The notes beneath the pieces were generated by a model that saw nothing but the letters and a program-made list of their open reading frames with translations, was not told where the DNA came from and did not search any database. Shown here one piece after another: positions 32,904 through 57,502 of a DNA stretch of 64,000 bases (within the stretch, counting starts at the first letter, position 1; each line of letters begins with the position of its first letter). The translations under genes and the position numbers were made by a program. Source of the DNA: Pseudomonadota bacterium (GTDB taxonomy: Bacteria; Desulfobacterota; Binatia; UBA9968); assembly GCA_021324155.1 (NCBI GenBank), contig JAJPJQ010000021.1, positions 1 to 64,000 on the forward strand. The letters are read 5' to 3'.

Positions 32904-33521
32904 ATGCCGCCCGAACGCCCGATCAAGCTTTACGATTTCGCTAGCTCGCCCAACTGCCAGCGCGTCGTGGTCGTCCTGGAGGAGAAAAAACTTCCCTACG
33001 AGAAAGTGCCGATCGATCTCAAGAAGATGGAGCAGAAAAAACCCGACTTCTTGAAGCTCAATCCTTACGGCAAGGTTCCGGTGATCATCGACGGCGCGAC
33101 CGTGCTCTACGAGTCGCTCGTCATCAACGAATACCTGGAAGAAAAATATCCCGAGACGCCGCTGCTGCCGAAAGACGCCGGCAAACGCGCAAAAGCGCGC
33201 ATCCTGCTGGATTACGGGATGAATCATCTCGACGGGCCTTATCAGAAAATACGCAAAGAGATGATGAAGGACGAGAAAGAGCGCGATCAGCAGCTCATCG
33301 AAGGCGCGCGCAAGGAGCTCAAACACTTGCTCGGCCGCCTGGAGCGCGAGCTCGGCGATCAGGCGTATCTAGCCGGCGACTTCTCACTTGTCGACGCCGC
33401 GCTGATCCCGAGATTCGTGCGGTTGGCCGGCATGGGAGTGCTGCCCGATCCGTCGCTGCCGAACATAGGAAAATGGATCGAGCGCATGAAGCAGCGCCCG
33501 TCGGTGCAGAAAATTCTATAG
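32904..33521 (+). CDS. Glutathione S-transferase (Cys/Ser type)
   Basis: The 205-residue protein has the thioredoxin-like N-domain (LYDFASSPNCQRVVVVLEEK, then NPYGKVPVIIDGATVLYES with the cis-Pro VPV and the ES glutathione contacts) and the all-helical C-domain (DFSLVDAALIPRFVRL). The start at 32904 follows AGGAGG. It conjugates or reduces substrates with glutathione or a similar thiol. It is useful as a paralogous comparison for the gene at 56314, which carries a UGA in the equivalent active-site loop. Confidence 0.92.
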   Translation: MPPERPIKLYDFASSPNCQRVVVVLEEKKLPYEKVPIDLKKMEQKKPDFLKLNPYGKVPVIIDGATVLYESLVINEYLEEKYPETPLLPKDAGKRAKARILLDYGMNHLDGPYQKIRKEMMKDEKERDQQLIEGARKELKHLLGRLERELGDQAYLAGDFSLVDAALIPRFVRLAGMGVLPDPSLPNIGKWIERMKQRPSVQKIL

Positions 33522-36122: not shown

Positions 36123-36671
36123 ATGACCGGATGGAAACGGTTCTCGCTCCACGCGGTCTCCTGCCTTATGTTCCTTCTCGCCGCCGCTCTGCCGGCCGCC
36201 GCACTCCAGGTTGGAGACAAGGCGCCGGATTTCGAGCTCGACAGCACGAAAGGCGGCAAGCTCAAGCTCAGCAGCCTCAAAGGCAAAAACGTTCTCATCA
36301 ACTTCTACGTGCTCGACTTCAGCCCAACTTGAATCAAGGACCTGCAAGCGTCCGGTTCGGACAGTTACGACAAGTTCAAGGCGGAAAATACAGAAGTCGT
36401 CGGCATCAGCGCCAACGCGCCCTTCTCACAAAAGGCTTTCGCGGATTTCGCCAAGATCAATTATCCGCTGCTCAGCGACCGCGACGGCAAGATTCTGAAC
36501 GCCTACGGAGTCTTCGATCCCGAGCGGCGCGTCGCCAAGCGCTCCTACGTGATCATCGATAAAGAAGGCGTCGTCAAATACTACGACATCCGGCCTTCTA
36601 ACACCGAGAAAGATCTTCTCTCGACCGATCAGCTTTTAAACGAAGTTAAAAAAGTCAACCAAGGCAAGTAA
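36123..36671 (+). CDS. Periplasmic peroxiredoxin with predicted selenocysteine at the peroxidatic site (UGA read-through)
   Basis: The gene begins after a strong AAGGAGG. The product starts with a signal peptide (VSCLMFLLAAALPAAA) followed by the AhpC/TSA core VGDKAPDFELDS and NVLINFYVLDFSPT. The next codon is TGA (36330-36332), codon 70. In the same frame the protein goes on with IKDLQASGSDSYDKF, VVGISANAPFSQKAFADF, YPLLSDRDGKILNAYGV and KRSYVIIDKEGVVKYY to a TAA at 36669. In peroxiredoxins the peroxidatic Cys stands three residues after a Thr/Ser preceded by DF; here that exact position is the TGA. No other Cys remains in the mature part, so it would be a 1-Sec enzyme. A hairpin follows the TGA. 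Sec recoding is inferred, not proven. Confidence 0.8.
36350..36362 (+). promoter_or_regulatory. Candidate SECIS hairpin of the peroxiredoxin gene
   Basis: GTCCG, loop GTT, CGGAC form a perfect 5-bp stem starting 17 bases after the UGA, with the loop beginning G-U. Bacterial SECIS elements lie just downstream of the UGA inside the coding region and need a G in the first loop positions. The stem is short, though partly extendable below a two-base mismatch. Confidence 0.45.
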
Positions 36672-53002: not shown

Positions 53003-53031
53003 AAAAATTGACCGATTATACCAAACGGGTT

Positions 53032-54582
53032 ATGTTGCTGTCAAAAACTTTGAAGCTACACGCCGTTATCCCGCTTCTCTGCCTCGCCCTTGGCTTTTCG
53101 GGCTGCGCGCGAAGCGCCGATGACCGCCCTCCCGGGGCTCTCGTCGTCGCGCTCGAAAGCGGCCCTACAAACCTAGATCCGCGCTACGCCACGGACGCGG
53201 ATTCCGAGCGCATTGCCGCGCTTGTCTTCGATTCCCTCGCGCGTCCCGACCGGAGCTTCCGTCCTCAGCCGGAGCTGGCGGCGAGTTGGGATGCTCCCGA
53301 CGAGCGCACATTCATTTTTCACCTTCGCCGGGGGGTCAAGTTTCATAACGGCAAAGATTTGACGGCCGCAGACGTGGCGTACACCTACCGGTCGGCGCTC
53401 GATCCGCGAAACCGCTCACCGAAGCGGGGCATTTTGCGCTTCATCGAAAGCGTCGAGGCCAACGGCGCTTACGACGTCCGCTTTCGCCTCTCCGCGCCGT
53501 TCGCAGCGTTTACGGAAACACTGACGCTCGGCATCGTGCCCCAAGGGACGCCGGTCGACGGCAGCGGGCTCGTCGGCTCGGGGCCATTTTCACTCGAGGA
53601 ATTTCGCCGCGGAGAGCGCATCGTGCTGAAAGCCAATCCCTCTTATTGGAACGGAGCGCCGCGCGTTTCCGGCGTCGTCTTCAAGATCATTCCCGACGCG
53701 ATCGTCCGGGTCCTCGAATTTCGCAAACGCACGGTGGACCTGATCCAAAACTACTTCGAGCCCGACATGCTGCCCTGGCTCGAACACAATAGTCGCGCCG
53801 TCGTCAGCAGCGCGCAGGGAACAAATTTCCAATACCTCGGCATGAACCTCGAGCATCCGATACTAAAGCACCGCGCGGCGCGCGAGGCGATCGCGTGCGC
53901 AATCGACCGCGACGCGATTATCCGCCACATCTTGAAAGACCTCGCCGTTCCTGCGACCGGGCTGCTCGCGCCGCAGCACTGGGCATACGAGTCGTCGGTC
54001 GAGGCAATCCACTTCGATCCAGACCGCGCGAAGCGGTTGCTCGACGAGGCAGGCTTTCCTGATCCCGACGGCGACGGGCCGCTGCCACGCTTCAAGCTGT
54101 CGTTCAAAACCACGAATCTCGATCTTAGAAAGCGCATCGCCGAGGCGCTGAAAGAGCAGCTCGCGCGCGTCGGCATCGAGCTCGAGGTGCGCACCTACGA
54201 ATGGGGCACGTTTTATGCCGACGTGAAGAAGGGCAATTTCCATCTCTACTCGCTCGAATGGATTGGCGTCGTCGACCCGGATATTTATTACGAACTTTTT
54301 CACTCGGCGAGCGTGCCGCCCAATGGCAACAACCGCGGACATTACCGTAATCTCGAGATCGATATGCTGCTGGAGCGCGGCCGGCGGGAAATGAGCATTG
54401 ACAAACGCCGGGTGATTTACGGCGAAGTCCAGCGCATCCTCGCGCGCGACCTGCCCTACGTTCCACTGTGGTGGTGGCGCAACGTCGCGGTCATGCAGCG
54501 GACGCTCCGCGGCTTCGAACTTTACCCCGACGGAAATTTAATTTCGCTGAGACGCATCAGCTTTGCGACGCCCGCCGGATGA
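53032..54582 (+). CDS. Peptide/opine-type ABC substrate-binding lipoprotein (DppA/OppA family)
   Basis: The product of about 516 residues has a lipoprotein signal (PLLCLALGFSGC) and the SBP family 5 pattern: GPTNLDPRYATDADSERIAALVFDSL, the loop FHLRRGVKFHNGKDLTAADV and the C-terminal IYYELFHSASVPPNG. It binds peptides or related oligomers outside the inner membrane. The ATG at 53032 is preferred to an in-frame TTG at 53008. dppB begins on its last four bases. Confidence 0.9.
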   Translation: MLLSKTLKLHAVIPLLCLALGFSGCARSADDRPPGALVVALESGPTNLDPRYATDADSERIAALVFDSLARPDRSFRPQPELAASWDAPDERTFIFHLRRGVKFHNGKDLTAADVAYTYRSALDPRNRSPKRGILRFIESVEANGAYDVRFRLSAPFAAFTETLTLGIVPQGTPVDGSGLVGSGPFSLEEFRRGERIVLKANPSYWNGAPRVSGVVFKIIPDAIVRVLEFRKRTVDLIQNYFEPDMLPWLEHNSRAVVSSAQGTNFQYLGMNLEHPILKHRAAREAIACAIDRDAIIRHILKDLAVPATGLLAPQHWAYESSVEAIHFDPDRAKRLLDEAGFPDPDGDGPLPRFKLSFKTTNLDLRKRIAEALKEQLARVGIELEVRTYEWGTFYADVKKGNFHLYSLEWIGVVDPDIYYELFHSASVPPNGNNRGHYRNLEIDMLLERGRREMSIDKRRVIYGEVQRILARDLPYVPLWWWRNVAVMQRTLRGFELYPDGNLISLRRISFATPAG

Positions 54583-55502
54583 AACGCTTTCTGCTCCATC
54601 GGATCCTGCTTCTTTTACCCACGCTGTTCGGCGCGGTCACACTCGTCTTCATTTTGATCCACGCCGTGCCCGGCGATCCGGTGGAGGCGATGCTCGGCGA
54701 GACGGCCTCGAGCGCCGACAAGGCCGCGCTCGCGCGCGAGCTGGGGCTCGACCAGCCGGTGCTCACGCAATACATCCGATTCCTCGGCGACCTCGCAAAA
54801 GGCGATCTCGGCCGCTCGCTCTACAACCAGGGATCGGTATCCGCATTGATCGCGACACGCATTCCAGCGACTCTGGAGCTGACGCTCGCCGCGATGGCTA
54901 TCGCGCTGTTGATCGCTTTTCCGCTTGGCATTCTCGCGGCGAGGCGGCGCGGCTCCGGCGCCGACCGCTTCGCGCTGCTCTTTTCTTTGTTCGGCCTCGC
55001 GGTGCCGAATTTCTGGCTCGGCCCGCTGTTAATGATCGCCTTCTCGATCCAGCTTGGCTGGCTTCCGGTCTCGGGCCGCGGCGGCGCCGCGCACCTATTA
55101 CTGCCGGCGTTGACGCTCGGGATGGCGATGGCGGCGATTCTCACGCGTATGATCCGCTCCGGTCTTATCGAGACGATGCATGAAGACTACATCCGCACCG
55201 CGCGCGCCAAGGGGCTCGATGAGCGCCGGGTGTGGCTGAAGCACGCGCTCAGAAATTCCCTCATCTCGGTCGTGACGATCGTCGGACTCCAGTTCGGCGC
55301 GCTGCTGGCGGGCTCGATCGTCACCGAGTCGATCTTCAGCTGGCCGGGAATCGGCCGCTTGACGCTGCAGGCGATTCAGACGCGCGACTACCCGCTCGTC
55401 CAGGGCTGCGTTCTGACGATCGCGTTTTCTTATCTCGCAGTAAACCTGGCGACGGATATCATTTATCGCATCATCGATCCGCGTATTACCTATGAAGACT
55501 AG
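54579..55502 (+). CDS. Peptide ABC transporter permease (DppB-like)
   Basis: The 307-residue membrane protein starts with the DppB-type LLLLPTLFGAVTLVFILIHAVPGDP, and has the coupling segment RTARAKGLDERRVWLKHALRNSLI (residues 206-229) and EsIFSWPGIGRL. Its ATG overlaps the binding-protein stop (ATGA), and dppC overlaps its 3' end by 11 bases. Confidence 0.93.
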   Translation: MKRFLLHRILLLLPTLFGAVTLVFILIHAVPGDPVEAMLGETASSADKAALARELGLDQPVLTQYIRFLGDLAKGDLGRSLYNQGSVSALIATRIPATLELTLAAMAIALLIAFPLGILAARRRGSGADRFALLFSLFGLAVPNFWLGPLLMIAFSIQLGWLPVSGRGGAAHLLLPALTLGMAMAAILTRMIRSGLIETMHEDYIRTARAKGLDERRVWLKHALRNSLISVVTIVGLQFGALLAGSIVTESIFSWPGIGRLTLQAIQTRDYPLVQGCVLTIAFSYLAVNLATDIIYRIIDPRITYED

Positions 55503-56298
55503 CCCGGCGCTCGCGCTCGGCGCGCTTTTACTGGCGGCGTTTGTCTGCGCCGCCGCTTTTGCGCCCGCGATCGCGCCGTACACGGCGACACAGCAGAGCC
55601 TCGACAACGATCTCGCCGGCTCGTCGCGCGCTCATTGGCTCGGCACCGACAAGCTCGGGCGAGATGTGCTGAGCCGGGTCGTTTACGGCGCGCGCATATC
55701 GCTCGCCGTGGGCTTCACCACCGTGGCGCTCTCGATCGTCATCGGATTCTGGATCGGCGCGCTCGCGGGATATTTCCGCGGCGGCGTCGATCAGGCGCTC
55801 ATGCGCCTCGTCGACATCCTAATGGCGTTCCCGGGGATTCTGCTCGCGATCGCCTTCACCGCCGTCCTTGGTCCCGGGCTCGATCATGTCGTCGTGGCGC
55901 TCGGCTTGATCGGCTGGACCGGCTATGCGCGTCTCGTGCGCGGCGAGATCCTGTCGTTGCGAGAAAAGGAATTCGTGCACGCCGCGGCGGCACTCGGCGG
56001 CTCGCCGCTGCGGGTGGTCGTCCGCCATTTGCTGCCGAACGTCCTGCCAGCGCTTCTCGTCCAGGCGACGTTTGGTGTGGCGGCCGCGATTATCGCCGAG
56101 GGCAGTCTGAGCTTCTTGGGCCTCGGCGCCGAGCCGCCGACGCCGTCCTGGGGCGCGATGCTGAACGAAGGCCGCCAATTCATTTTGGTCGCGCCCCATC
56201 TTACGGCGTATCCCGGCCTCGCCATCACCATTACCGTTCTGGCGCTCAATCTCGCCGGCGACGGCCTCCGAGATCGGTTGGAGAAACGGGGCAAATAG
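55492..56298 (+). CDS. Peptide ABC transporter permease (DppC-like)
   Basis: The 268-residue permease has the DppC landmarks HWLGTDKLGRDVLSRVVYGARISL, LVRGEILSLREKEFVHAAAALG (coupling helix) and EGSLSFLGLGAEPPTPSWGAML. It completes binding protein plus two permeases, but no ATPase genes (dppD/dppF) follow; the next gene is the UGA-containing GST, 15 bases on. Confidence 0.94.
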   Translation: MKTSPALALGALLLAAFVCAAAFAPAIAPYTATQQSLDNDLAGSSRAHWLGTDKLGRDVLSRVVYGARISLAVGFTTVALSIVIGFWIGALAGYFRGGVDQALMRLVDILMAFPGILLAIAFTAVLGPGLDHVVVALGLIGWTGYARLVRGEILSLREKEFVHAAAALGGSPLRVVVRHLLPNVLPALLVQATFGVAAAIIAEGSLSFLGLGAEPPTPSWGAMLNEGRQFILVAPHLTAYPGLAITITVLALNLAGDGLRDRLEKRGK

Positions 56299-56313
56299 TG
56301 ATAGGACGATTCC

Positions 56314-56874
56314 ATGCTGAAACTTTACTCTTGCCGCACCTGACCCTACGCGCATAGGACGAGGATCGTCCTGGCGGAGAAGAAGCTCGGCTACGATCTC
56401 ATCGAGGTCGATTTGAAAAACAAGCCGAAGGACCTTCTGGAGCTGAATCCCTACGGGAAGGTGCCCGTGCTCGTCGACGACGGCGATCCGGTTTATGAAT
56501 CCAACATCATCAACCAGTATCTCGACGAGAAATTCCCCGAAGTCCGCCTGCTGCCGCAAGAATTAAAGGCACGCGCGCGCGTGCGCATCTGGATGGACTA
56601 CTGCGATACGCGCCTTCACGCGGCGGCGAGCGACGTGATGCACGGCGCGGAACCGGAAAAAGCCAAAGAGCGCCTCAAGAAGCATCTGGCAGTCGTCGAG
56701 CGCCAGCTCGATGGCAACGAATATCTCGACGGTCCCTATTCCCTTGCCGACATCGCGCTCATTCCCTTCTGCGTCCGCCGCGAGCGCTATCAATTCACCC
56801 TCGACGAATTCCCGCGGCTTCTCGGCTGGCTCGATCGCGTCCTCGCGCGTCCCGCCGTCGCGTCCACGCTCTAA
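56314..56874 (+). CDS. Glutathione S-transferase-fold protein with predicted selenocysteine at the active site (UGA read-through)
   Basis: From the ATG at 56314 (AGGA eight bases before it) the frame reads MLKLYSCRT, then TGA (56341-56343, codon 10), then PYAHRTRIVLAEKKLGYDLI and NPYGKVPVLVDDGDPVYES, on to TAA at 56874 (186 residues). Relatives carry Cys in this loop, in the form TCPYAHR/TCPFCxR, where the residue attacks or contacts the thiol; here that position is UGA. The C-terminal helical domain is normal (YSLADIALIPFCVRRE). A gene finder using only standard codons would start after the active site, at a TTG near 56413, losing strand 1 and helix 1. A strong hairpin follows the UGA. Sec insertion is inferred. 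A sequencing error TGC to TGA is the main alternative. Confidence 0.82.
56356..56372 (+). promoter_or_regulatory. Candidate SECIS hairpin of the GST gene
   Basis: AGGACGA, loop GGA, TCGTCCT: a perfect 7-bp stem beginning 12 bases after the UGA. If the top A-U pair opens, the loop is AGGAU, with G in the second and third positions, close to the AGGU-type apical loops of known bacterial SECIS. Distance and size fit the fdhF-type element. Confidence 0.6.
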
Positions 56875-56890: not shown

Positions 56891-57502
56891 ATGGCCGAAG
56901 TATCGAGAACGGATAGAAGAAAGGCCGACCGCCAGGCGAAAAAGCAGGTCCGGGACAAAGAGCGCCGCAAGCAGCAAGCGGCGTCGATGGCGCAGAAGGC
57001 TATCGTTTTCGCGATCATCGCGCTGCTCGTCGCCGGCGCGGGATTGTGGGGCTACCGACGCTGGAGCCAAGGCTCGCCAGGACAATTCGTCGCCAGCATG
57101 GGCAACCGGCATATCGCGGAGAACGAGGTGGGCCTCACGCGCTACAACAGCGATCCGCCGACTTCGGGGCCGCATCTGCCGCAAGTCGGGAGCTGGGGCA
57201 TCCACAAGGAGCCGTTACTGAAAGAGCTCCAGGTCCACAATCTCGAGGACGGCGGCGTCGTCCTTCAATACAACTGCCAGCCCGCCGATGCGTCCTGTAA
57301 AACCTTGATCGAGCAGCTCTCGGAGGTTTCGCGCAAGTACGACCGCGTCGTGGTCGCGCCTTATCCCGGCATGAGCAATAAGATTTCTTTGACGGCCTGG
57401 CAGCGGATCGACAAGTTCGACGATTACGACGAGCAGCGCATCGTGGGCTTCATCGAATCGTACATCCACATCGACCACCATCCCGCCGGGGGCGAAGGCT
57501 AG
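56891..57502 (+). CDS. DUF3105 family membrane-anchored protein
   Basis: The 203-residue protein starts with a very basic N-terminus (about residues 7-32), a membrane helix (AIVFAIIALLVAGAGLWGY) and the DUF3105 domain: YNSDPPTSGPHLPQVGSWG, VHNLEDGGVVLQYNC and a C-terminal IESYIHIDHHP. DUF3105 has conserved His and Cys that suggest metal binding; the function is unknown. It begins 16 bases after the UGA-containing GST and likely belongs to the same transcript. Confidence 0.88.
   Translation: MAEVSRTDRRKADRQAKKQVRDKERRKQQAASMAQKAIVFAIIALLVAGAGLWGYRRWSQGSPGQFVASMGNRHIAENEVGLTRYNSDPPTSGPHLPQVGSWGIHKEPLLKELQVHNLEDGGVVLQYNCQPADASCKTLIEQLSEVSRKYDRVVVAPYPGMSNKISLTAWQRIDKFDDYDEQRIVGFIESYIHIDHHPAGGEG

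Follow-up and report, generated by a model that had tools for sequence, protein, structure and literature searches.

A predicted selenocysteine-containing glutathione S-transferase and its UGA-bearing relatives in a class of uncultured bacteria

Glutathione S-transferase (GST)-like selenoproteins (COG0625) were described by Zhang, Fomenko and Gladyshev in 2005 from four Sargasso Sea sequences (PMC1088965), and twelve GST-like selenoprotein sequences were reported from GOS in 2008 (PMC2398784). The family is also listed in PMC9312934 and PMC13188914, in both cases without a motif or a function, and a 2026 review counts it among the selenoprotein families still largely uncharacterised in function. 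In the literature we found no biochemical test of a predicted selenocysteine (Sec)-containing GST, and our search returned no paper connecting selenoproteins with Binatota. Cys-GSTs in general deglutathionylate and do not conjugate (PMC4138524); omega-type enzymes pass through a mixed disulfide with glutathione (GSH), from which a second GSH molecule regenerates them (PMC3621891).

In this context, we analyzed a stretch of 64,000 nucleotides from a member of the Binatia (assembly GCA_021324155.1, contig JAJPJQ010000021.1, positions 1 to 64,000), referred to here as the window, in which a GST gene is interrupted by an in-frame UGA (Table 1). The frame opens with the ATG at 56314, reads MLKLYSCRT, meets the TGA at 56341-56343, continues with PYAHRTRIVL and ends with the TAA at 56872-56874; it holds this one TGA only. 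The original prediction had described a gene at 56314-56874 with an ATG, a Shine-Dalgarno, the MLKLYSCRT stretch, a TGA placed on the catalytic Cys and no further stops, and all of this checks out, the catalytic Cys of the relatives aligning exactly to the TGA codon. Pfam domains are recognized across the TGA (GST_N, E 1e-20 to 1e-22; GST_C, 5e-8). The paralogue at 32904-33521, for which Cys or Ser had been claimed in the equivalent loop, reads SPNC there, with Ser at the Sec-equivalent site and Cys three residues on. For the reasons developed below, the gene almost certainly encodes a selenoprotein, hereafter Sec-GST, with the UGA decoded as Sec. Standard annotation would cut such a gene short or drop it.

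Table 1. Features of the Sec-GST locus in the window (coordinates refer to the window).
Feature	Coordinates	Strand	Remarks
Sec-GST gene, SspA/omega-like glutathione S-transferase	56314..56874	+	186 aa with U10
In-frame UGA, predicted Sec10 at the catalytic Cys site (TUPYAHR)	56341..56343	+	TGA in 49/49 copies; Cys in solved relatives
Shine-Dalgarno-like AGGA	56303..56306	+	7 nt 5' of the ATG, read off the sequence
Bacterial-type SECIS hairpin, predicted	56356..56372	+	stem of 7 bp, or 8 if one wobble pair is counted; GGA loop begins 20 nt after the UGA
OppC/NikC/GsiD-type ABC permease	55492..56298	+	stop 15 nt 5' of the Sec-GST start
OppB/NikB/GsiC-type ABC permease	54579..55502	+	overlaps both neighbours
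Family 5 solute-binding protein (SBP_bac_5)	53008..54582	+	same putative operon as the two permeases
DUF3105 protein	56891..57502	+	3' of Sec-GST in several relatives too

The AlphaFold model of Sec-GST (pLDDT 96.2, pTM 0.92) contains a strand at residues 2-6 and a first helix spanning residues 11-22, and residue 10 is therefore placed by the model at the N-terminus of helix 1. Pfam, the model and the fold matches concur in a thioredoxin-like N domain followed by an all-helical C domain, as in the GST superfamily; being a GST by Pfam and carrying a putative Sec, the protein belongs with the COG0625-type GSTs containing Sec. A fold search of the PDB returned GST and SspA structures with TM values of 0.88-0.94, tau GSTs and SspA-like proteins coming first and omega GST ranking lower. 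The best solved sequence relatives are SspA-like proteins from Burkholderia and Neisseria, which have Cys at the Sec site.

These matches bear on function and leave the Sec itself untouched: the protein might be a Sec-containing RNA-polymerase regulator of the SspA type instead of an enzyme, as SspA is its closest NCBIfam model (105 bits) and the name borne by its best solved sequence relatives. However, its 105.5 bits stand against a curated cut-off of 314 bits for NF007016, and none of the UGA copies contains PHP, presumably the motif by which E. coli SspA contacts sigma and RNA polymerase. The retention of the costly Sec also points to redox chemistry. Because it scores under the SspA cut-off and lacks PHP, we did not file the family as SspA, and a regulator of this type seems to us unlikely.

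Relatives of Sec-GST were sought in 97 related genomes. This yielded 48 copies besides that of the window, about 35-66% identical, hence 49 in 41 genomes when the window's genome is counted, and these span at least five families within the class. Every one of the 49 extracted sequences has a single TGA, which always aligns to residue 10, and a Cys form was found in none of them (0/49). The non-UGA relatives in the class carry Cys (CPF) or Ser at the equivalent site, so that the comparison of homologues at residue 10 proposed with the original prediction finds TGA, Cys or Ser aligned there, and TGA in every orthologue. The copies fall into four subfamilies. The 19 members of A read S-x-x-T-U-PYAHR or variants of it, the 21 of B PUPYAHR, the 7 of C UPFAMR and the 2 of D UPYARK. 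A phylum-wide profile search recovered TGA copies inside the class only, at E <= 1e-45, and no relatives were found in the viral contigs scanned. Among named contigs, the nearest belong to MAGs of uncultured organisms from groundwater and soil, deposited as Deltaproteobacteria. In seven genomes (G009, G012, G014, G016, G020, G021 and G024) Sec-GST is present as two or three paralogues, and every one of these contains the UGA.

Among close and moderate (unsaturated) pairs dN/dS is about 0.04-0.15; for the window gene and its nearest copy dN is 0.23 and dS about 2.6, which is saturated. A 32-row alignment has 25 invariant columns, including P11, A13, T16, R17, L20, E22 and K23 just after Sec. 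Judged by these substitution patterns, purifying selection acts on the protein and is strong downstream of the TGA. A pseudogene or a sequencing error, in which the TGA would be a nonsense change of a TGC or TGT Cys codon, would explain a lone TGA in an intact frame by one such change, and gene-calling programs would label the result a truncated gene. Yet the same codon is TGA over at least five families, and strong selection with no other stop follows it. Since all 49 copies have the single TGA at the same site and none has Cys, we hold the gene to be neither an error nor a pseudogene, and the chance of either as very slim. It is similarly improbable, to an extreme degree, that translation of a short leader peptide stops at the UGA and that the enzyme restarts downstream, for which a later in-frame start is at hand, the first being the TTG at 56413. 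A restart there would yield a protein lacking strand 1 and helix 1, conservation in residues 11-23 is among the highest in the protein, and a comparison of ORF starts finds this TTG not conserved among the relatives. The purifying selection and the invariant residues after Sec rule out both a pseudogene and a restart at this codon.

Translation through the UGA as Sec is further consistent with the RNA that follows it. The 7-bp hairpin that had been claimed for 56356-56372, 12 bases after the UGA, is found in this position and with this sequence (AGGACGA/GGA/TCGTCCT, starting 12 nt after the UGA). The published limits for bacterial SECIS (bSECIS) elements are a loop of 3-9 nt, a stem of 4-16 bp, a G in the first two loop positions, a spacing of 16-37 nt and an MFE <= -7.5 (PMC13188914), and the window hairpin falls inside them with a loop of 3 nt, a stem of 7 bp, GG, a spacing of 19 nt and -8.4 kcal/mol. 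Single-sequence folding gives no excess over chance for it (z -0.35), and 6.7% of synonymous recodings with the same peptide and local codon usage produce a perfectly paired stem of 7 bp or more that complies with the loop and spacing rules.

The comparison across copies is more telling about the hairpin as a family trait. In subfamilies A-C the stem covers the codons R15-T16-R17-I18-V19-L20; AGR is used at the two Arg positions in 94/94 cases versus 90/595 elsewhere in the same genes, and the Thr16 wobble position is A in 36/47 versus 14/310, these counts, like those on covariation, disregarding relatedness among the copies. The R15.3-V19.3 pair occurs as G-C, A-U and G-U, and the T16.3-I18.3 pair as A-U, G-C, U-A and G-U, with a U-U mismatch in four. 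When the 40 distinct SECIS sequences are compared, pairing holds in 98.6% of cells (the internal U-U stem mismatch occurring in 4/40) and two base pairs covary, with a score reached by 0/500 shuffles; sliding the helix by 1-3 columns reduces pairing to 30-44%. With freely changeable codons locked, two pairs covarying and the GG loop kept at bSECIS spacing, the predicted hairpin is significant across the family. The SECIS check suggested at the outset has thus returned a hairpin within the published limits and conserved with covariation.

Subfamily D (loci L059 and L060, genomes G075 and G068) has a different hairpin in place of the local one, GCCCTTTT-GGA-AAAAGGGC, which starts 24 nt after the UGA and whose loop begins 32 nt after it, within the bSECIS limits. 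Compared with the other subfamilies the element is shifted ~12 nt downstream, and the GGA loop is retained. In the tree, A-C form one group and D is found among Ser/Cys relatives; the Sec copies need two changes, and the well-supported branches force two. As the tree places D apart and the D hairpin has moved, this suggests two origins of the Sec-GSTs, D consisting of two sequences only, on a long branch. A wider proposal, on which we find the balance even, is that these proteins make up a GST class of their own that is locked to Sec, has no Cys form and is inherited vertically in an order of uncultured bacteria, and that there were two or more origins of Sec-GSTs in this bacterial class.

The sel genes, whose presence had been named as a check, were found in the window's genome: selA, selB and selD are clustered on one contig (C16), which also encodes tRNA-Sec (selC; 74.8 bits, ARAGORN SeC, anticodon TCA). 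The selD gene (L002, 6186-7250, minus strand) has a TGA at the usual Sec site (AAGUAAKL) and is itself a predicted selenoprotein gene. SelA is matched in 38/41 genomes with a UGA-GST. The exceptions are G011, where tRNA-Sec was found, G023, where part of selD lies at the end of a contig, and G005, estimated to be 100% complete in 240 contigs, which keeps the UGA gene and in which no selA, selB or tRNA-Sec was found. We treat the missing genes as assembly gaps, for G005 tentatively; there we assume a missing contig because the genome also carries a UGA peroxiredoxin. In another genome (G067) a tRNA-Sec match of 81.4 bits occurs with no SelA or SelB match above cut-off at 99% estimated completeness. 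Decoding of the UGA as an amino acid other than Sec, through a code change to Trp, Cys or Gly or through general readthrough, would suit a frame open under any UGA sense code but deserves next to no weight, as TGA terminates other genes here (at 54580-54582 that of the solute-binding protein), the Sec machinery is complete and includes a UGA selD, and the hairpin is specifically conserved. The original prediction of a Sec-GST with UGA read as Sec is therefore supported by the conserved TGA, the Sec machinery and the conserved SECIS. A conserved recoded UGA, a conserved RNA element, the Sec machinery and the GST fold are what the sequences themselves provide.

We infer that Sec is inserted, how catalysis would proceed and what class of substrate would be used. 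SelB and tRNA-Sec would decode the UGA as Sec, aided by the hairpin. The product would be a cytosolic GST-fold enzyme of the thiol-transferase type, with Sec10 at the start of helix 1 in a UPYA loop that resembles the omega CPFA. By analogy with Cys-GSTs, the Sec10 selenolate would attack a glutathionylated or an electrophilic/oxidised substrate, an enzyme Se-SG intermediate would form, and a second GSH would reset the enzyme. A monothiol-type seleno-thioltransferase cycle appears most likely by this analogy, because Sec sits in the UPYA loop and position +3 offers no resolving Cys. We also weighed a CxxU redox pair; as Cys7 is present in only 12/49 UGA copies and UxxC in 0/49, we rejected a dithiol mechanism as a general one.

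The solute-binding protein and the two overlapping peptide/nickel-type permeases at 53008-56298 form an arrangement that is conserved in relatives, and the same peptide/nickel/glutathione-type permease precedes Sec-GST in at least 13 of them. No ATPase gene lies between these importer genes and Sec-GST, and their scores against the GsiC-, GsiD- and GsiB-type models are below cut-off. We put forward a link of Sec-GST to the import of peptides or glutathione as no more than a suggestion. Elsewhere in the window, an AhpC/TSA peroxiredoxin gene (36123-36671, plus strand) has a TGA at 36330-36332, at the peroxidatic Cys site (DFSPT-U), and all full-length matches in relatives have one TGA each. By sequence it matches the known Prx TxxU family and would be the second selenoprotein of the window. 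This thioredoxin-fold selenoprotein family shares window and lineage with Sec-GST but differs from it in family and reaction.

Of the known systems close to Sec-GST, one is the omega class of GSTs. The catalytic Cys of hGSTO1 occupies the same site as Sec10, with a CPFA instead of a UPYA loop, and the class acts as a thiol transferase via an enzyme-GSH mixed disulfide (PMC3621891); unlike Sec-GST, these proteins are eukaryotic, use Cys and are about 30% identical. The closest solved sequences are the betaproteobacterial and neisserial SspA-like GST homologues (PDB 4qq7, 6v91 and 4hoj), which read TCPFSQR or TCPFSHR at the Sec site. Two of the three bind glutathione according to their titles, and their chains contain Cys, not Sec, and are somewhat longer than Sec-GST.

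The 49 aligned UGA copies, the covarying SECIS and the confident model offer a concrete protein for asking what Sec adds to a Cys-GST. As in the GST-like selenoprotein family (PMC1088965), the UGA of the window gene is paired with the Cys of homologues and followed by a bacterial SECIS-like stem-loop. The known records are metagenomic or marine, and their tables give neither Sec motif nor class. Unlike them, the Sec form of the window is fixed across a whole lineage in which no Cys form was found. It is thus well supported, from a comparison with the descriptions of the 2005 and 2008 records, that Sec-GST is a lineage-fixed addition to the predicted GST-like selenoproteins.
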